Assembly: GCA_019448385.1 (NCBI GenBank)
Contig: JAGTXO010000011.1
Span: 958,001-1,022,000 of the forward strand
Source: Diacronema lutheri
Lineage: Eukaryota > Haptophyta > Pavlovophyceae > Pavlovales > Pavlovaceae
Direction of reading: 5' to 3'
Length of the DNA stretch: 64,000 nucleotides
The notes beneath the pieces are model-generated. The model worked only from the letters and a program-made list of their open reading frames with translations. It was not told the origin of the DNA and searched no databases. Each line of letters starts with the position of its first letter. Positions within the stretch are counted from its first letter, which is position 1. Positions 53,148 to 64,000 of the stretch are shown here, one piece after another. The position numbers and the translations under genes are program-made.

Positions 53148-54860
53148 TCACGAGGGGCGCCGCTGCCGTCCCCCCGGCCTCTGCGATTGGCCGTTGCACG
53201 CGCCGAGCGGCGTCGACTCGTCGCCCGCGCCGGCCGACCCCGACATGCGCCGCTCGAGCATCCGCGCGGCTGGCGGCTCGGCGTCCGTGGGCTTGGGCGC
53301 GGGCAGCGGCACGAGCAGCAGCTCGCCCTTCGCCTTGCGCTCGTCGAGCCGCTCGCGCGCGCTCTCGACCTCCGCGACAAAGCGCGCGCTGCCGTGCAGC
53401 AGCTCGTTGAGCGAGCACGCGTCGGGGCTCTCGCCAAAGTAGAGCAGCAGCTCAGGCAGCAGTGCCCCCACGTCGGCGTGTGCGGCGTGCAGCTCGGCGA
53501 GCGCCTCGCGCGCCTGCGCGCAGAACGGCTCCATCTTCGACTCGAAGGCGTCCGTGTGCGCGCTCGCGACGACGCGCCCGCCGTCGACCGCGAGGGAGAC
53601 GTGCGCACGCACGCCCGCGCGCGCGCGCAGTTGTGCGTACTGCAGCTCGGCGCTGACGGCCTCGACGGTGCTGCCCAATCGTTCCATCTCCGCGCGCAGG
53701 TGGTCGTGGTCGACGCGGCGCGTGGCGAGGAGAGGGCTGAGCTCGGGCAGGAGCGAAGGAATGTGCGGCAGCGGGTCGCTCACGCTCTCAATTAAAAAGT
53801 CGACGAGGCTTGCGGCCTCGCGCACGCCCGTCGCCTTGTGCTCGAGCGCCTGCTCGGCGCGCGCGGCGGGCCACGCGCGCGGCGCGGTGAGGCGCGCAGC
53901 CCGCGGCGCGCGCGCGCGCGGGCACGTGGCGGAGGATGGCCGTGAGATGGGAGAGAGGGGACGGGGACGGAGAGAGGGAGAGGGGGGGGGGTTCAAATTC
54001 GGCGCCTGCCGCGCACTCGCCTTGAGCATGGTGGAGAGAACGCGGTAGCCGGTGGCGTTGCCACTGGGCGTGCCGCTGTTGAGGTGGTTGCCCAGCCGCA
54101 GCAGCATGTGCAGCAGCTCGGCAAGCCGCTTCGACTTGAGCAGGGCGCGCGCACCCGCGGCAATCTGGCGCATGCCGCGCGTGGCCGCCGCCGCGTCGGC
54201 CAGCACGCTCTCGCGCGCGGCGGCGGCGCGCAGGCGCGCGCCGAGGCGGGGCACGTCCGCGACCTCGAGGAGGTAACGCTCCGCTTCGGAAAGCGGCGGC
54301 TGCTCGCCGGGCGTGTGCGCGGGCGCGCAGAGCTCGGCGGCAAGGATGGCGAGCGCCGCGGCCTCGGGCGGAGTTGGCAGGCACTGGAGCAGCGCGCTGA
54401 TTGTGTCCGGTGTGAGGACGGTACTGTCGAGAGTGAGCAACGCACTCTTGATGCGCGCCGGGTGCATCCGCAGCTTGGAGAGCGAGATGCCAATCAGATT
54501 TGATCGATTCGCGTCGAGCGCGGCGCGGCGTGTTTTGGGCGTGCGCGCGCTCACGGCGCGCGCCTTTGCGCTCGGCGGCGCGGCGCGGAAGAAGGCGTCG
54601 GCGCGCGCGAAGAGCGTCGCGCACTCGGACGGCAGGTGCGAGCACGGCCGCCGTGTCCACACCGAGCCGTCCAGCTCGCGTGCGGGCAGCTTCGCCCAGT
54701 GCAGCTGCCGGAAGCGCGGAGCCGCGCGCGGCTGCGCGGGGGTAGGGCCGCCCGTGCTCGGCCGGCGGCCGGGCGGCGGCGGAGGGGGCGGCGCGCCGGG
54801 CGCGCTGCCGGGCGGTGCCACCGGCGGCGGCGGCGGCGGCGGCGCGCCGGGCGCGCGAGG

Positions 54861-54891
<31 letters not shown>

Positions 54892-54915
54892 GGCGCGCCG
54901 GGCGCGCGAGGCGGC

Positions 54916-54959
<44 letters not shown>

Positions 54960-54990
54960 GCCGGGCGCGCGAGGCGGCGGTGGCGGCGGC

Positions 54991-55037
<47 letters not shown>

Positions 55038-56112
55038 GGCGCGCGTCGCCTCCTCGCGGCCACCCTCCCGGCTGCCGTCCGAGCCGACGCCAGCGCTGGC
55101 GGAGGCGGAGGCGGGGTCGCCGTAGCCGCCCGTGCCGGTCGGCGCGCCGCCAGCGCGGGGCACGCCGTCGAGCGCGGCGGCAAGCGCTTCACCAATCGCA
55201 CCGCCACCGCGAGCGCCACCGCGCGCGCCCCCGAGCGGCGCGCGAGGCGCAAGCAGCGCGGTCTGCGCATGCGCCGCCGGCTTGATGGGCGACCCGGACA
55301 CGCCGGACCCGGACGCGCCGGACCCGGACGCGCCGGACCCGGACGCGCCGCTCCCGGACGCGCCGGACCCGGACGCGCCGCTCGCGTTGCTCTGCGCGCC
55401 CGCACCGCCCGCCGCCATGTGTGCTCTCGCGGTACCGCCCGCACCGCCCGCCGCCGCGCCTCGCGCCAGCGCTGTGCTGCGCTCGAACGCGAGGCGCTCG
55501 GCAGCGAGCGCCTCCTCCGCCGCCGCTGCGCGCCGCGCGGTCGCCGCGTGCGCGCCGCGCTCGGCCTCGAGGCGCTCGCGTAGCGCAGCGCATTCGTGTA
55601 GGAGCGCAGTCAACTCACTCGAGCTGCCCACGCCCGCGTGCGCGCGGTTGCCGTCCGTTCCCGAGTGCGCGCCGCTGGCCGTCGCGCCGTGCACACGGCC
55701 GCCGTCGGCTGTGGCCGCCGTGCCGGCTGCGCGCGCGCGCAGTGCGTCCGCCGGCGGCCGCGCGCGGCTCGGCGCGGCGGCCGAGTGGTTGGTGGCGGGT
55801 ACGGTCGGCTCGAGCTGCGATGGCTGCGCCCTCAGCTCTGTGCCGCTTTCCGCCCTCAGCTCTGTGCCGCTTTCCGCCCTCAGCTCTGTGCCGCTTTCCG
55901 CCCTCAGCTCTGTGCCGCTTTCCGCCTGCCGCGCGGCCGCGAGAAGCGACGGCGCGTCGAATGGCGTGGCGGGCGCGCGCGTTGCGACGTGCGTTGCCGC
56001 ACCAGCCGAGTCCGGCTGCGGCTGCGGCTGCGGCTGCGGCTGCGGCTGCGGCTGCGGCTGCGGCTGCTTGCGCGCGGCGCGCAGCTCGTCGCTAGGCGGC
56101 GCGCCGTCGACG

Positions 56113-56169
<57 letters not shown>

Positions 56170-56233
56170 GCGCGCTCGCGCCCCTTTCGCTGGTGGTCCG
56201 CAAAAATTTCGGAGAAGATGCGCCGCGTCTCCG

Positions 56234-56265
<32 letters not shown>

Positions 56266-56834
56266 CGCGCGGCGCGCGCGCCCGCGCCGCGCTCCGGCGC
56301 GCTCCGACGTGCGGTGGCTGCGCCGCCGCCGCCACGTCTACTTCCGCCGCCGCCGCCACCGAGCGCAAAGGCGTCGCGCCCGTTCACCTGCGCGCGCGGC
56401 TGCGGCACGCGCACGCCGAGCACGTTCTCGTCGGCCTCGAGGAGGAGCTGCGCAAACATCCGCCGCATCTCCGTGGGCTCGTGCTCGCGCAGCGCGCCGC
56501 TGTGCACCTTGAGGCCGTGCGCGGCGGTCTGCGCCGAGATCGGCAGCGACGGTGGTGCGGACGACTGCGCGGACGACGACGCCGACACAGGCCGGCGCGT
56601 CAGCGCACTGCCGCCGAGCCGCCCGCCGCGCCCCTCGCGCAGCGCCACGCGGCACACGTCGCACACGCCGCAAAAGCGGCGGCAGTACTGCAGCCGCGGG
56701 CCGGCGTATGCGCGCGCCGCCATCCGCTCGGGCGTGCCGGGCGAGCCGCCCGGCCCTGGCTCGCCGCCGCTCCGCGCGCGCCGCGCGTCGCCCTCGACCA
56801 TCCCTGGACAAGACGTCGGATTTGACAGATTCAA
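53148..56834 (-). CDS. Formin (FH1-FH2 actin nucleator)
   Basis: Two exons (54021-56834 and 53148-53849) give 1171 residues. Formins nucleate and elongate unbranched actin filaments. FH1 is at about 590-690, long proline runs separated by RAPGAP. FH2 begins about 705 (FRQLHWAKLP) and contains NLIGISLSKLRM, LLLRLGNHLNSGTPSGNATG and, joined across the intron, TMLKALEHKATGVREAASLV and DFLIESVSD. The intron 53850-54020 is GC-AG (AAG|GCGAGT ... GAGCAG|GCG), 171 nt and free of stops, so an unspliced reading would add 57 residues inside FH2. The N-terminus has a Cys cluster (YCRRFCGVCDVC), a polyQ run, a QP run, a tandem ESGTELRA repeat (four copies) and SGSGA repeats. No GBD or DAD regulatory domain is recognisable. 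The start could be the Met at 56801. Confidence 0.93.
54800..55035 (-). repeat. Proline-codon repeat of the formin FH1 domain
   Basis: Runs of CCG/CCA-type codons, in three blocks separated by Arg-Ala-Pro-Gly-Ala-Pro. Such tracts bind profilin-actin. Confidence 0.85.
56110..56170 (-). repeat. CAG repeat coding polyglutamine in the formin
   Basis: About twenty CAG codons in the sense strand, adjacent to a QP dipeptide run encoded around 56014-56065. Confidence 0.9.
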
Positions 56835-57188
56835 ATCAGTTAGGGAGAATATCAGTTATCCTCGAGTTTTTGCTACGACGATCGTTTTGCCAGAATAGAT
56901 ACTGCCCGTTGGGTCTGAGTTCGCGGACGAAGGAATAGGAGAGACCCGCGCGCGAAAAAGCGAAAATGGCCGCGAGAGGTGCGCGCGCGCGTCGCGTCGG
57001 CCCCGCGGGAGGTGGCGCGGTGCGTGTCGCGCTATGCGTGTCGCCGCTGCGCGTGGGGGTTCCTGACATACCCGGCAACCCCGCTCTCATAACCGCGACA
57101 CGTGCAGGCGGCGCGGCCGCAGCGCCGCGAGCGGCGTCGTCATCGGCGTCGGTCGCGGGCACCGGCTCTCGGTCGAGGTCATGAATCA
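56835..57188. other. Intergenic region between formin and the mobile-element island
   Basis: About 350 bp. The first 130 bp (56835-56965) are clearly AT-richer than the surroundings and may be the formin promoter or the left flank of the mobile element. I found no terminal inverted repeat by eye. Confidence 0.5.
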
Positions 57189-57590
57189 TCCTGCGGCGGC
57201 TATTTTCTCGGCAGGAGCGCGGTGAGGATTGCGGATGACCTCCACACATCCACCGACACGCTCACGGAGTCGATCGTCCGCGCCACCATCGAGCGGTACG
57301 AGGCCACCGGCATCGTCGATTCCCAGCCGAACAAGCCGTGCGCGAAGCTCATGAGCGAGCTCGACCAGGAGCTGATGCTCGCGATCATGGCGGAGCAACC
57401 GTGACTTTACTTAAGCGAGATTGCGGCCGAGCTGCAGGCCGTCACGCTCAAGGCGTTCACGCGCGAGTACATTCACTACAACCTCTGCGCCGCCGGCCTC
57501 TCGCTCAAGAAGATGCAGCGCGTCCAAGCGGCCCGCGACGAAGAAGAACACCTCGGGCATGCTGAGGAACAGCTGCGCGCGCTCGACGCT
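57189..57590 (+). pseudogene. Tc1/mariner (IS630-like) transposase, DNA-binding half, interrupted
   Basis: The reading frame shows two helix-turn-helix units typical of this transposase group. First: GRSAVRIADDLHTSTDT, then RYEATGIVDSQ. Second: LYLSEIAAELQ, then REYIHYNLCAAGLSLKKMQR and ARDEEE. The GLSxKKMQ...RDE signature is characteristic just before the catalytic domain. An in-frame TGA (57402-57404) separates the two units, and the DDE/DDD catalytic domain is missing: the frame continues only as antisense of another ORF. The fragment is therefore a truncated, stop-containing remnant, unless the TGA is removed by splicing. Confidence 0.65.
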
Positions 57591-58160: not shown

Positions 58161-58365
58161 CCGTCTTCGCCGGTCGAGCGCGATTAGCGGCGCGACGCGT
58201 CTCGCGCGCCGGGCCGGCGCGCCGACACATCGCTCGTCTCCGCCGTGCGCTCCTCAAGCTGCGCGGCTTTGATCTCCGCCGCCTTTGCGGCCGCCTCGTC
58301 CTTGTTGGCGCGCGTCTCAGCCGACCGGGCCTGCGCTTGCGCCTTCTCCCCGAGCGCAGGCGCAA

Positions 58366-61262
58366 AGTACGAGGTCGAGACGGTCGTCGACGAGCGCTGC
58401 AAGGCGGGCAAGGGAGTCACGCTCCAGTTCCGGATCAGGTGGCTGGGCTACGACGAGATCGCCGACACGTGGGAGCCCGAGGGCAACCTCGACAAGGGCC
58501 TCGTCGCCCAGTTCCGCAAGGCGCGACGAGCAGGAGTGGCGGCGCGGGCGGATCAGGCAGCGGCAGTGGCGGCGCGGGCGCGGGCGCGGCGTCGGCGTCA
58601 GCACCGCTGCGCGCGCACGGCGTGTCGGGCGCCGCGGGCCAGCGCGCCGCGGTGGGCGCCGCCGTGGGCGCGCGCGCGCCGAGCGCCCCCCGCGCGCGCG
58701 GCGTCGAGGGCACGAGCGTGGACGAGCCCGCCGCGCCGAGCGCGCGCGCCGCCGGCGGCGCGACTGCGCGCACGCGCGGCAGCATGCTCCCGGGCTTCGT
58801 GGTCAAGCGCTCGACGCTCAACGCGGGGCCGCAGGCGGTGACGGCGCAGCCCGGTGCGCGGAAGGAGCTACGGCGCCTCGTGACGGCCGTGCACAAGCTC
58901 ACGACACAGGCGTACCGCGTCATCAACAAGGTGGTGCGCGACGAGGCCGCGGTGGCGAGCGCGCGGGCCGCCGGCGTGGCGTCGGGCGGCCCGTCGACCA
59001 GCGTACACACGTCGACCACGATGGACAAGGGAACTGTCGGCGCGATCTTCTCGGCCATCGGCTGGCACAAGGACGAGAGCACGTACGGTGCAGCGCCCCG
59101 AGGCAGGCCCGCCGAGCAAGCCGCCGCGCAGACTAAAGCGGCGACGGCGCGCGCCGTCGGCGAGATGGCCGAGGGCCTCCAGCCCATTTGCGCGGTGGGC
59201 CTCGGGTGCATCCTTGCCAAGGAGGCGGTGCAGGTGTCCGTCGCGTGCCTGATGCACCCATCGCGCGTCGTGAACGGGCTGCTCCGCGACGTCGTCCGCG
59301 CGGCAGTCGAGCGCGACGAGGCGCTCGTGGCGCTGCCCGAGATGCAGCGAAACGCGCGCGTGCGCGAGCTGTGCCAGCTGCTGCTGCGCGGCAACGTGGC
59401 GGGCGCGCGCGCCGGCTGCCCCGCCGCGCTCGACCGCCATCTGCCCGATATGGTCCTCCACGGCATCGACTACACGTGCACGTGCACGCAAAGGTGGGAC
59501 TACGACCGGCACACGACGCGCTCCTTCCTCGTGCAGATCCGCAACATGCAGCACGTGGCCGAGGGGCAGGCGCTGCTCTGCCGGCTCGCGCACATCCATA
59601 CGCAGCTGACCGGCCGGCCGCCGCGGTACAATGTGGCGCCGCTGCGCACGCACAATGTGCGCGCGAGCCGCTGCTGCCGCTGCCGCCACCGAGCGCCCAA
59701 GCGCGCGCGCCGCCGCCGTGCGCGCCGCCCCGCGGCCAGGTTGCTCACGCGCCCGCGCGCTCGCGCGCCGCGCGCTGCGCGCAGATGCCGCGCAACGTGC
59801 GCCTCACCGCGGACGCCATCTGGGACACGCGCGGGCGGGACGAGCGCAAGGAGCTGCGTGCGCGGCTCAAGGCGCTGGACCTGCGCGACCACGATGAAAT
59901 AATAATAAAAAAAAATTTGGCGAGCCGATCAGGTAGACCGATCGTAGCGGCTCATTCGTCCCGCCAATGTCGGACGTGCGTGTCAAATATGCGGTCCTCG
60001 CGACGCGCTTTGACATCTCCAACCGCGTCTTCGACTTCGCCGGGCGCGAGCGGCCGCCGGCCGACCTGCCGTGGCACGCGCGGCGCTCGTGGGTTGGCCT
60101 CGCGCCGCTGCCGCGCGTGCCGCTCCCGGGCCGGCAGCCTGTCACGTCGGTAGTGACGGATGGCGTCGCCGTGCACGCCGTCGGGGTCGTCCTCGTGCCG
60201 AAGGCGCAGGCGCCGACCGGCGGCTCGAGCGTCCTGCACCGCTGCCGCCGGCCGGACGGGCGCATCGCCATCGCGCTCGGCTCCGAGCTGCGGCGGGCGA
60301 TCGACGTCGAGGAGGCGGTCGTCGTCGCGGCCGACCCGAACATGGGCAACATCACCACCTACTCTGCGCACGTCGGGCGGGCGGCCGCCTGGCGGCAGTT
60401 CACGCAGCGCGCGCGCGCGCGCGCCGCGGGCTTTGCGCGCGAGACGGCCAAGACCAACACGGCGCGGCGGCGTGTGCGCACCGTCGGGCGCGGCGAGGAG
60501 TTGAGCGTGGAGGCGGACGAGGCGTGGCTTGGCGAGGCGCACAGCTCCAAGGTGCTCGACGCGCGGAGAGTGCTCGACGCGCGGAGATTCGTCGCCTTCC
60601 ACCGCGCGAGCGCGCCGGTGCGCGAGCGCGCCGCCGAGCACGTGTACGACGCGCCGGCGCGCCGCAAGGAGCGCTGGCGGCGCGACAGCGGCGGGCGGTC
60701 CAACGCGGCGCGCGTCGCCGAGGCGCTCATCGCGGCGCACTGCGTCGACGGCGTGACGCGCGACCGGCTGCTCGTGTGCGTGGGCAAGTGGCTGCACGAC
60801 CACAGGGGCGCGTAGCCCAAGGGCGCGCCGCCCGCCTTCCAGGTGGGGCTGCTGCTGCGCGAGCGGCGGCGGCGCGGCGTCGCGGCCGTCTTCGTGCCCG
60901 AGCCGTACACGTCGATGCACTGCTCGACGCCGCGGCTCGCCAAGGGCGGCAGGCTGCAGCGCTGCGGCGCGGAGCTCGCGCAGAACCCGCGCCTGCCCGT
61001 GGCAAAGGGCGGCACGCGCAAGGTGCGCGCGCTCGTCGTCTGCCCGGCGTGCAACGGCGGCAAGAAGTTAGCGCACCGCGACCACAACGCCGCGCGCAAC
61101 ATCTTCTACGACGTGCACGACATGGCGGCGCACGCGGCCGGGCGCGACACCACGTCGACGCCTGAGCGCTTTGGCCTCGTGCTCGCCTGGTGGGCGCGCG
61201 GCGAGGTGTGGGAGCTCGAGGAGCGCATGGTGCACGGCGAGGGCAACGAATGGGACGACGAA

Positions 61263-61326
<64 letters not shown>

Positions 61327-61793
61327 GCAGCGTCGCCGACGATGACGGTGGCGGCGGCGGCGACGGCGGTGGCGACGACGACGACGGCGGTGGCGGCGGG
61401 CGCGGCGGCGGCGCTTGCGCCCGCATCCCCGCCCGCAGAGCTGTCGGCGCCAGTGTTGGCGGTGGCAGCGCGCGCGGAGCGCTCGCGGAGCGAAGCGCGG
61501 CCGGCATTGACGCACGGCCGAGCCGCGCAGTGATCGACGCTTTGCGGGCTCAGCCCAGGTCGCGCGTGGCTGGCGACGCGCGTTGCGCGCGACTCGCTTG
61601 TGCACGCCGCCGCCCACGGCCGAGCGCGCCGCGTCAGCCGGCCCGCTCCGACCGCCGTTTGGATCACGAACGCCCGCTACGGCTCGTCGGCGCGCGTCCT
61701 CTGCGCCGACGGCCACGGCGCCGTCCGCTTCGGCCTCGTCTCGAGCAGCCCGCCCGCTGCTCGCCGCCCCCCACGCCGCCGCAGCTTCGCTGA
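58366..61793 (+). CDS. Fanzor (eukaryotic TnpB-type) nuclease with upstream chromodomain exon
   Basis: Proposed exons 58366-58520, 58643-59656, 59785-59871 and 59937-61793. The first encodes a chromodomain (KYEVETVVDERC, then LQFRIRWLGYDEIADTWEPE) and joins in frame through a GC-AG intron (AAG|GCGCGA ... GCCAG|CG). The Fanzor part has the helical N-terminus RRLVTAVHKLTTQAYRVINK, then YNVAPLRTHN spliced to MPRNVRLTADAIWD, then VTSVVTDGVAVHAV. RuvC-I is VVAADPNMGN (Asp codon 60333-60335), RuvC-II VFVPEPYTS (Glu codon 60900-60902), a Cys cluster ends in VVCPACNGG, and RuvC-III is HRDHNAARNI (Asp codon 61080-61082). All three acidic residues are in one frame. Fanzors are RNA-guided DNA nucleases carried by transposons. 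An in-frame TAG (60813-60815) lies between RuvC-I and -II, so this copy may be dead. The start exon upstream of the chromodomain was not found. The tail is Asp/Gly-rich. Confidence 0.7.
59896..59967 (+). repeat. A-rich segment followed by a nested hairpin inside the Fanzor gene
   Basis: An A/T-rich run (59896-59918) stands out from its GC-rich setting. It is followed by nested complementary segments: TTGGCG (59917-59922) with CGCCAA (59962-59967), GAGCCG (59922-59927) with CGGCTC (59948-59953), and GATC (59927-59930) with GATC (59940-59943). The Fanzor reading frame changes across this segment, either because it is part of a short intron or because it was inserted. Confidence 0.7.
61266..61325 (+). 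repeat. Hexanucleotide (GACGGC)n repeat coding Asp-Gly
   Basis: About ten GACGGC copies after the Fanzor RuvC-III motif, followed by further Asp/Gly-rich sequence. Confidence 0.9.
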
Positions 61794-62268
61794 GCAACGT
61801 GCTCCCACGCTCGCCAATCGAGGAGCACCCTTCCGAGGACCTCCCTCTGAACAACCCGCGCCGCACCTGGGCCGCCCCTCGCGAACATATCTCAGCGAGT
61901 GTCCATAAACCCTTGTGACTCGGGCAAGGCGACCAGACAAGGTCGGATAATGGAAGCGTCCGCTGCGAGAGCCCCGTGGCCAGGCGCCGAGCAGCCGATC
62001 GGCGCTGCGCGCTGCTGCATCGCCTGCCAGCTGCGGAGCGTTGCGTCTCCCGTCCTTGTGCCCGCGTCGAAGAAGGACGAGAGATCGTACGCCTTGTCGT
62101 CAAAAGAGCCCTGCCCGACGATGCCGGCGATCCTGGCCGTGCTGCCTCATTTTTAGCACGAAGCGTTAAGCAGAGAAAAACGCTCGTAGAGCCAGCCTGC
62201 CTCGGCCCCGTGCGCGCCCCTCCTGCTGACCCGCTTGTAAGCGTCGTTATGGGGGGTAGTATTTTTAG
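61794..62268. other. Region downstream of the Fanzor, no gene recognised
   Basis: 475 bp. If the Fanzor is functional, its guide RNA would be expected to overlap the 3' end of the gene and this region; I cannot identify it by eye. The segment 61899-62156 is less GC-rich. The only repeat seen is the 25-bp pair noted separately. Confidence 0.5.
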
Positions 62269-62285
62269 CACGAAGCGTTGAGCAG
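62149..62285 (+). repeat. Pair of 25-bp direct repeats
   Basis: Copies at 62149-62173 and 62261-62285 match at 24 of 25 positions (ATTTTTAGCACGAAGCGTT, then A or G, then AGCAG). They are AT-rich for this genome and start 112 bp apart. Confidence 0.9.
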
Positions 62286-64000
62286 TTGTGGAAAAAGACG
62301 TGCCAAGTTTCTGGAAGCCTGGCTCACGCGCGCCGTGATCCTGCCCCTCGTGCTCGGCGTCTCGCACGCGGCGACCAGCGGTCCGGTAAGCTTCGGCGGC
62401 AATTCGTGGTACCTTGCGCCTGTCCAAACTACTTGCACCCAAGCGTGCACAGGGCTAGGCTTGGAGTGCGACGGTGATGTCCTTCTCAACCATGGGATGG
62501 AGGCTCTGAATCAAGCTGCGTTCGAGGCCTTCGTTGACGACTTCACCGACGTTCCCTCATCGTACTGCTCTACCACTTTCGACCAGTCGGCGGGCGGCGG
62601 ATTCGGCCTGTCACACTTACCCCTCATCACCGCGCAAGGCCCACAAGCCAACCAATGTTACACGGGGCAAACCTCAGCGACGACGGCTGGGTCGGCCTGT
62701 GATGCAGCATCAACTAACATTGACCGGCGGCTCTGCCCGTGCCTGACTCCGCCGGCACCACCGCCATCGCCCCCTCCGAGCCCAACGCCACCGCCGCTGC
62801 CGCCGCCGCCGTCACCCCCTCCGAGCCCGCCGCCCTCGCCCTTGCCGCCGCCGTCTCCCCCTCCGAGCCCGCCGCCCCCGCCCTCGCCGCCGCCGTCGCC
62901 CCCTCCGAGCCTGCCGCCGCCGCCGTCGCCGCCGCCGTCGCCGCCGCCGTCGCCCCCTCCGAGCCCGCCGCCCCCTCCGTCGCCGCCGCCGTCGCCCCCT
63001 CCGAGCCCACCGCCGCCGTCGCCGCCGCCGTCGCCCCCTCCGAGCCCGCCGCCCCCGCCGTCGCCGCCACCTTCGCCCCCTCCGAGCCCGCCGCCCCCGC
63101 CTTCGCCGCCGCCGTCACCCCCTCCGAGCCCGCCGCCCCAGCCGTCGCCGCCGCCGTCGCCCCCTCCGAGCCCGCCGCCCCCGCCGTCGCCGCCACCGTC
63201 GCCCCCTCCGAGCCCGCCGCCCCCGCCGTCGCCGCCGCCGTCGCCCCCTCCGAGCCCGCCGCCCCCTCCGTCGCCGCCGCCGTCGCCCCCTCCGAGCCCA
63301 CCGCCGCCGTCGCCGCCGCCGTCGCCCCCTCCGAGCCCGCCACCCCCACCGTCGCCGCCACCTTCGCCCCCTCCGAGCCCGCCGCCCCCGCCTTCGCCGC
63401 CGCCGTCGCCCCCTCCGAGCCCGCCGCCGCCGCCCTCTCCGCCGCCGTCGCCCCCTCCGAGCCCGCCGCCGCCGCCGTCGCCGCCGCCGTCGCCCCCTCC
63501 GAGCCCGCCGCCGCCGCCGTCGCCGCCGCCGTCGCCCCCTCCGAGCCCGCCGCCGCCGCCGTCGCCGCCGCCGTCGCCCCCTCCGAGCCCGCCACCCCCG
63601 CCGTCGCCGCCGCCGTCGCCCCCTCCGAGCCCACCGCCGCCGCCGTCGCCGCCACCGTCGCCTCCTCCGAGCCCGCCGCCGCCGCCGTCGCCGCCGCCGC
63701 CGTCGCCCCCTCCGAGCCCGCCCCCACCGTCGCCGCCGCCTTCGCCCCCTCCGAGCCCCCCGCCGCCGCCGTCGCCGCCGCCGACGCCCCCTCCGAGCCC
63801 CCCGCCTCCCTTTCCGCCGCCAAGTCCGCCGCCCAGCCCCAACCCGCCGCCCTACCCGCCGCTGTCGAGCGAGCTGCCCCCTGTCAAGGCGCTGGTGAGC
63901 GTGACGGTCGACCAGTCAATCGAGGACGTGCAGCAGCTCCTCGCAAACATGACCGCCGCCTTCGCGCGCGGCATGCAAGTCCCCATAAGATACGTCGAAG
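62269..64000 (+). CDS. SPPP-repeat (hydroxyproline-rich type) extracellular protein, partial
   Basis: Open frame from after a TAG at 62266-62268 to the window end; it continues beyond. No ATG is in frame near the beginning, so a 5' exon is missing from my model or a non-ATG start is used. The first part has a signal-like AVILPLVLGVSHA, then a Cys-containing domain (YLAPVQTTCTQACTGLGLEC, SSYCSTTFDQSAGGG, then RRLCPCLTPP). A stretch of about 1 kb then encodes Pro/Ser repeats, and after it an ordered domain begins (VKALVSVTVDQSIEDVQQLL). Such SPPP linkers are hydroxylated and glycosylated in algal wall or scale proteins (pherophorin-like layout). The function of the domains is unknown. Confidence 0.65.
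62757..63840 (+). repeat. Tandem Pro/Ser repeat, mostly 42-bp units
   Basis: About 25 imperfect units of 42 bp encoding PPPSPPPPPSPPPS-like peptides, some shortened by one or two codons. Variation is mainly synonymous third-base change, so selection on the protein is likely. The opposite strand is also open (Gly-rich) but is a shadow. Confidence 0.9.

Follow-up and report, generated by a model that had tools for sequence, protein, structure and literature searches.

We report here on a fragment of about 3.5 kb within a 64-kb stretch of the genome of the haptophyte alga Diacronema lutheri (the window, C37:958001-1022000 of a 43.5 Mb assembly of 103 contigs), in which a chromodomain lies upstream of a Fanzor. 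Fanzors are nucleases found in eukaryotic transposons of many kinds. The fragment is probably a dead piece of a giant D. lutheri DNA transposon whose less damaged copies link a RecE/YqaJ exonuclease, the chromodomain and the Fanzor, and which may couple RNA-guided cutting to chromatin. In this element, which has well over a hundred copies of which many are near-identical, chromodomain and Fanzor occupy one gene region of a giant protein and run in one frame to an exon border. In the following, copies are named by their contigs in the assembly (C9, C13, C70, C78 etc.) and L numbers denote loci.

In-frame linkage of chromodomain and Fanzor

The middle part of the Fanzor occurs in at least 134 genome copies including the window (the best 134 of 356 candidates), and at least 109 of these sites have, among the matches listed, a chromodomain on the same strand at a near-constant distance upstream. 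Several of the other 25 sites (among them L002, L008, L009, L013 and L014) carry a chromodomain on direct reading. The second half of the chromodomain, a Gly/Ser linker and the Fanzor N-terminus form a single uninterrupted frame in 27 of 30 loci; the loci used (L001-L030) start inside the chromodomain, so just its second half is covered. The three misses are the window itself (L001), a 5'-truncated copy (L020) and L028, which has the usual length of the chromodomain exon (exon 1) despite lacking the exact search string. The diverged copy on C70 is in frame across the entire chromodomain to the Fanzor N-terminus (503 aa), and the one on C78 is in frame from inside the chromodomain onward, with stops further down.

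We take the fusion to be real, with the chromodomain joined to the Fanzor N-terminal exon in the less damaged copies. An earlier reading of the window from its sequence alone (the sequence-only reading) had proposed such a fusion, and had named related copies in which the two parts are never linked as evidence that would speak against it; the linkage was found in related copies, while the proposed splice model proved wrong and the window copy a pseudogene, as described below. The chromodomain does stand N-terminal to the Fanzor as proposed, but as part of a much larger open frame.

Identity of the two domains

The chromodomain claimed at 58366-58520 is a canonical one and was confirmed by Pfam (PF00385, E 7.8e-11, 42.2 bits against a cut-off of 25.1), and the same signature was found in the C9 copy. 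The solved chains closest to the C9-copy domain are those of CDY1, CDYL and CBX5/HP1, with E about 1e-9. Aligned to the CDY1 and CDYL chains, the C9 copy shows Y, W and Y at three positions that we take to be the aromatic cage, and the window has the same letters. Genome-wide we count at least 150 chromodomain sites (the best 150 of 247 candidates), none of them with a stop inside the match and many sitting in open frames of 4,000-6,136 aa; the best 150 of 260 candidates all reach at least 53.7 bits and lie mostly in giant frames. Diverged chromodomain copies also stand about 7.2 kb apart at C78:245067, 252275 and 259491, resembling a tandem array.

The Fanzor identity proposed by the sequence-only reading stood as well. 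The zinc region matches PF07282 with 29.7 bits in the window (E 7.3e-7) and 27.3 bits in the C9 copy, against a cut-off of 26.3. The split RuvC D-E-D triad is present, with the window motifs ADPN (RuvC-I), VPEPYTSMHC (RuvC-II) and HRDHNAARN (RuvC-III), and in 28 of 30 loci the exon bearing it keeps a single open frame. The misses are L022 and the window; there the three motifs do share a reading frame, as had been claimed, but a TAG at 60813-60815 interrupts it between RuvC-I and RuvC-II. The RuvC-II glutamate takes the alternative position defined in the excerpted text of PMC10711439, six residues ahead of the zinc motif (E-PYTSMH-C). The same excerpts give the TDG motif of the WED domain as a Fanzor1 trait; TDG occurs in the window, in L031 and in P0005, one of three relatives of the RuvC exon (exon 2), and the other two relatives have SDG (P0003) and VDR (P0004).

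Profile comparison with other Fanzors of the same genome gave an hhalign probability of 97.9 and E 3.8e-13 for the part after RuvC-I to RuvC-III, and hmmsearch gave E 1.4e-13 for a stretch including TDG and RuvC-I. The profile of these same-genome Fanzors matches SpuFz1 at E 6.6e-6; no direct sequence match of the element's Fanzor to solved Fanzor structures was found. We take the window Fanzor (58784-61790) to be a divergent nuclease of Fanzor1 type, now decayed.

The giant element

The largely intact C9 copy measures about 31.0 kb, from C9:1127562 to about 1158600. The 5' to 3' gene order of the family begins with a PIF1-family helicase (PF05970, E 1.8e-24 in the C13 copy, which over 8 kb shares 99.7% identity with C9) and a ubiquitin-hydrolase-like (USP) open reading frame (ORF) with E 4.3e-8 in the C9 copy and at least 132 genome sites (the best 132 of 351 candidates). 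A 1,345-aa ORF of no recognised family follows, the best 131 of 207 candidates for it all being 99-100% identical, and then a 4,513-aa open frame. Towards the C-terminus of this giant frame the order is RecE/YqaJ exonuclease, chromodomain, Gly/Ser linker and Fanzor N exon. The RecE domain matches phrog_434 at E 5.6e-17 in the C3 copy, where Pfam YqaJ scores 20.7 bits, slightly below its cut-off of 22. In four copies (C11, C48 and two on C75) a single frame of 5,733-6,136 aa takes in both the giant frame and the 1,345-aa ORF. A codon-usage scan trained on the long frames revealed no further long stretch with a clearly positive score.

The distances from the 5' end to the Fanzor suggest shorter relatives of about 21.5 kb; one of them, partly read, is 99.4% identical over the 5' 2.4 kb and is missing a block from the middle. 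In another locus, L062 (C49:211000-216500), an internal deletion has taken out the chromodomain and the Fanzor N exon as well as the beginning of exon 2, leaving a 987-aa frame in which the RuvC part is fused to the giant frame. Protein-database searches scored the best 8,000 candidates by shared words per query, and among these the 1,345-aa ORF had no relative. Relatives of the element were likewise absent from the viral contigs and prokaryote genomes scanned.

The near-identity of the copies suggests that the element has multiplied recently. Its 3' end is sharp, with CCATCT and then ATAC in 22 of 26 flanks. These 26 flanks are essentially unrelated to each other, although one pair shares 57 nt, and four of them match the element itself weakly; the GC content of their first 50 nt averages 57% against 69% over the whole flanks. 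The 5' end is preceded by TATATA(C/G) in 10 of the 11 copies read and by TATAGAG in the remaining one. We give the ends as TATATA(C/G)GGCGCGG and CCATCTATAC, with the exact terminal bases uncertain because the 9 end pairs with both flanks readable, judged by eye, showed no consistent target-site duplication. The C9b copy has a 12-nt repeat at its ends that may be local.

Telomere targeting was considered, as contigs start or end about 1.15 kb past the Fanzor match, and was rejected when the three ends read showed no telomeric repeats. Contigs C1, C3 and C6 (L029, L002/L032 and L011) stop within a few bases of the 3' end of the element, and since they lack telomeric repeats we take these ends as assembly breaks at repeat edges.

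Two further observations concern the 5' region. L038:3919-4790 and the matching stretch of L037 (C9), about 0.87 kb, are 91% identical to their own reverse complement, and this segment reads as a large imperfect palindrome. At L060:8566-9001, by a second Fanzor family, 436 nt are 98% identical to part of the 5' region of the giant element.

A possible role of the fusion

In our preferred reading the chromodomain would bind a methylated histone tail and thereby keep the giant RecE-chromodomain-Fanzor protein at selected chromatin. Using a guide supplied by the right end of the element itself, the Fanzor could then cut DNA at or near empty or donor sites, and such guided RuvC breaks on methylated-histone chromatin might help the element to be copied or kept. 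The RecE/YqaJ nuclease and the PIF1 helicase may process such a break and help the element to be copied; in what order these steps would come, and even whether they are needed, is hypothetical. A bolder proposal, to which we give little credence, dispenses with a conventional transposase altogether: the giant protein would select the chromatin, cut it under RNA guidance and, together with PIF1, copy the 31-kb element into TATA-type sites. If true, this would be an RNA-guided, chromatin-reading giant transposon.

Several results weigh against chromatin tethering by a working fusion. It should be noted that the dN/dS method is crude at the GC content of this genome. For seven chosen pairs of open-frame copies it gave 0.73-1.14 for exon 1 and, over the initial 1,260 nt of exon 2, 0.44-0.69. 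In comparison with the decayed C70 and C78 copies, whole exon 1 gave 1.37 and 1.60 and the chromodomain alone 0.74 and 0.84, and between window and C9 the values were 0.96 (chromodomain), 0.78 (linker) and 0.87 (N exon). As two shifted-frame controls for C70 gave 0.75 and 0.85, the true frame of exon 1 looks no more constrained than wrong frames, and the tests lend no support to selection on the chromodomain exon. Among the database candidates scored this exon found just a partial match from the same species and no relative outside D. lutheri.

The nuclease part has its own weaknesses. RuvC-I reads DPN instead of DPG, with D and P kept; in the three relatives P0003-P0005 it is DPG in two and DTG in the remaining one, and the excerpted text of PMC10711439 calls DPG near exclusive to Fanzors, not absolute. 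The presumed N lobe (WED/REC) lies in collinear position with the canonical Fanzor at a weak hhalign probability of 3.3 (E 0.013), and scores no better than shuffled sequence. Structure prediction, which the sequence-only reading had put forward as a check on the fusion, gave poor results in both AF2 models, and Foldseek alone found no match at E 0.001. The last 60-300 nt at the 3' end, considered as a source of a guide RNA, showed no unusual fold and no unusual stability (z +0.6 to -1.2).

The chromodomain might instead be a relic or a structural part of a giant polyprotein, possibly cleaved off, leaving a Fanzor that works, if at all, without it. We regard this as possible, if somewhat unlikely. 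The dN/dS of exon 1 near 1 or above is in its favour, along with protease-like motifs in the giant protein (Ulp1-like H-D-Q-C, picked out by eye, with no support from hidden Markov models) and the three other Fanzor ORFs of the genome (L060, L061 and L063), in which a Pfam scan detected the TNB region alone and no chromodomain. It accords poorly with the retention of all three cage positions in the C9 and window copies, and with the scores of the best 150 of 260 chromodomain sites, every one far above the cut-off. Chromatin tethering of RNA-guided cutting stays our preferred, if conjectural, reading. If the chromodomain does steer the nuclease, nature would offer a precedent for RNA-guided cutting that is addressed to chromatin, and what a Fanzor does for its transposon could be tested directly in an alga that can be cultured and has a compact genome.

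Junction with the RuvC exon

The exon 1 frame of the C9 copy stops soon past RPPRYNVAPLRTHN and the RuvC exon begins with VPRNV; a putative 128-nt GT-AG intron of phase 0 would connect the two. With the 5'-truncated L020 dropped and the intron borders fixed by the search pattern, the 128-nt length was found in 28 of the 29 loci measured. Measured from inside the chromodomain, exon 1 has 1,227 nt in 27 of 28 loci and 1,221 nt in one, the loci having been filtered for lengths divisible by three (28 of 29 kept). The exon-2 lengths are multiples of three by construction and hence no evidence.

Among the database candidates scored, the RuvC exon matched one near-identical and three distant proteins. 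The relatives P0003, P0004 and P0005, 40-45% identical, are predicted to start at the same residue as the exon. The codon of this first residue is ATG in the window and GTG in C9, and the three relatives have Met or Val there. In the window a GT-AG intron at 59657-59784 likely joins the Fanzor N-terminal exon to the RuvC exon, and through this 128-nt intron chromodomain and nuclease would come to lie on one polypeptide.

The same data allow for two polypeptides, with a giant chromodomain protein that ends shortly after the Fanzor N exon, at a stop about 170 nt beyond the splice donor, and with the RuvC part as an ORF of its own starting from the ATG or GTG of exon 2, so that the nuclease carries no chromodomain. 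The start-like first residue of exon 2 would suit this arrangement, as would the different dN/dS of the two exons. We nevertheless hold it to be unlikely, as a consensus 128-nt phase 0 intron bridges both frames, the RuvC exon by itself would lack the N lobe of known Fanzors, and exon 1 runs stop-free through a weakly Fanzor-like segment in collinear position.

The window copy

Aligned to the C9 copy, the window fragment covers just the last 3.5 kb of the giant element; its start at the chromodomain (58358) is abrupt, and about 36 nt are missing at the 3' end of the element. Its features are as follows.

58358-61875, plus strand: giant-element fragment, 5'-truncated and decayed; 88.6% identical to C9 in 3,598 alignment columns.
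58365-58520, plus strand: chromodomain of HP1/CDY type with cage positions Y, W, Y; PF00385, E 7.8e-11.
58521-58603, plus strand: first part of the Gly/Ser-rich linker, where 2 nt are deleted and 1 nt inserted relative to C9; alignment with C9 and C78.
58604-58783, plus strand: remainder of the flexible linker, again in the Fanzor frame; translation and alignment.
58784-59656, plus strand: N-terminal exon of the Fanzor, presumably its N lobe; an open frame here and in other copies.
59657-59784, plus strand: putative GT-AG intron, phase 0, 128 nt; frames and length in other loci.
59785-59901, plus strand: beginning of Fanzor exon 2; P0003, P0004 and P0005 predicted to start at the same residue.
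59902-59936, plus strand: A-rich insertion and frame shift of the window copy; sequence against the C9 reading.
59937-60812, plus strand: WED-type TDG motif (codons from 60156) and RuvC-I (Asp codon 60333-60335); motif reading.
60813-60815, plus strand: in-frame TAG between RuvC-I and RuvC-II; translation.
60816-61790, plus strand: RuvC-II (Glu codon 60900-60902), zinc region, RuvC-III (Asp codon 61080-61082) and tail; PF07282, E 7.3e-7.

We read the window copy as a pseudogene, a dead 5'-truncated fragment of a giant DNA transposon. Apart from the TAG, the A-rich insertion near 59902 shifts the frame of exon 2 upstream of RuvC-I. An acidic, glycine-containing low-complexity tail follows RuvC-III.

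Within the window the frames of chromodomain and Fanzor do differ, and the sequence-only reading had tried to explain this break by splicing the chromodomain exon to the Fanzor through a GC-AG intron at 58521-58642. We reject this intron as highly improbable because in other copies one continuous frame runs across this stretch; the mismatch stems from two small indels by which the window departs from C9 and C78, a 2-nt deletion and a 1-nt insertion near 58521-58545. That a chromovirus (Ty3/Gypsy) fragment merely adjoins an unrelated Fanzor by chance is scarcely credible, even with chromodomains known as accessory domains of LTR-transposon polyproteins (PMC6338049, in excerpt), given the repeated in-frame linkage, the near-constant spacing in at least 109 of 134 copies and the lack of any reverse transcriptase or integrase Pfam family in the element ORFs scanned, a subset of its frames.

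Three other frames of the window were noted. On the minus strand, a long frame at 53148-56855 has by eye a poly-proline and a formin-like stretch (FRQLHWAKL). Short plus-strand frames at 57093-57560 have by eye the look of a transposase helix-turn-helix, with no convincing Pfam match. A long plus-strand frame with (SPPP)n repeats at 62269-63999, still open at the window end, resembles a hydroxyproline-rich extracellular protein.

Comparison with known systems

The sequence-only reading knew of no described chromodomain-Fanzor, and we found none by titles and abstract openings, in a search with most subscription journals and preprint servers outside its coverage. In the main text of the D. lutheri genome paper (PMC8379373), a study that drew on three RNA-seq libraries, neither 'transpos' nor 'Fanzor' occurs.

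Chromoviruses are Ty3/Gypsy retrotransposons with a C-terminal integrase chromodomain. Like them, the D. lutheri element is mobile and carries a chromodomain beside a DNA-cutting enzyme, but its nuclease is of Fanzor type and no terminal repeats were found in what was scanned. With Helitrons, whose ends are 5' TC and 3' CTRR, it shares a PIF1 helicase, a Fanzor part and the lack of a consistent target-site duplication. Helitron transposases are among those associated with Fanzor1s in the excerpted text of PMC10711439. The element differs from Helitrons in its RecE/YqaJ, USP and chromodomain parts and in ends that do not follow TC...CTRR, although the exact terminal bases are uncertain; the element ORFs scanned had no Pfam match to an HUH Rep nuclease, of which distant forms could escape. 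With its PIF1, USP, RecE/YqaJ, chromodomain and Fanzor parts, and no recognised transposase, the element appears to fit neither transposon class tested, chromoviruses or Helitrons.

The same genome holds a second Fanzor1 family, read at L060 (C9:378000-387000) and L061 (C71:945500-953800), which are among 14 sites where PF07282 scores 43.9-44.5 bits. It resembles the Fanzor described here in its TDG and ExYTSxxC motifs and in profile homology (E 3.8e-13), but has DPG, an ORF of about 1,650 aa and a different element, with no chromodomain detected.

A further comparison is with Fanzor1 itself (SpuFz1, PDB 8gkh/9ceu). The likeness extends to the PF07282 zinc region, the D-E-D triad, the TDG motif, the glutamate six residues before the zinc-region cysteine and residence in a mobile element. 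The D. lutheri Fanzor departs from it by DPN for DPG and a long acidic tail, and the element adds a chromodomain and a giant open frame.

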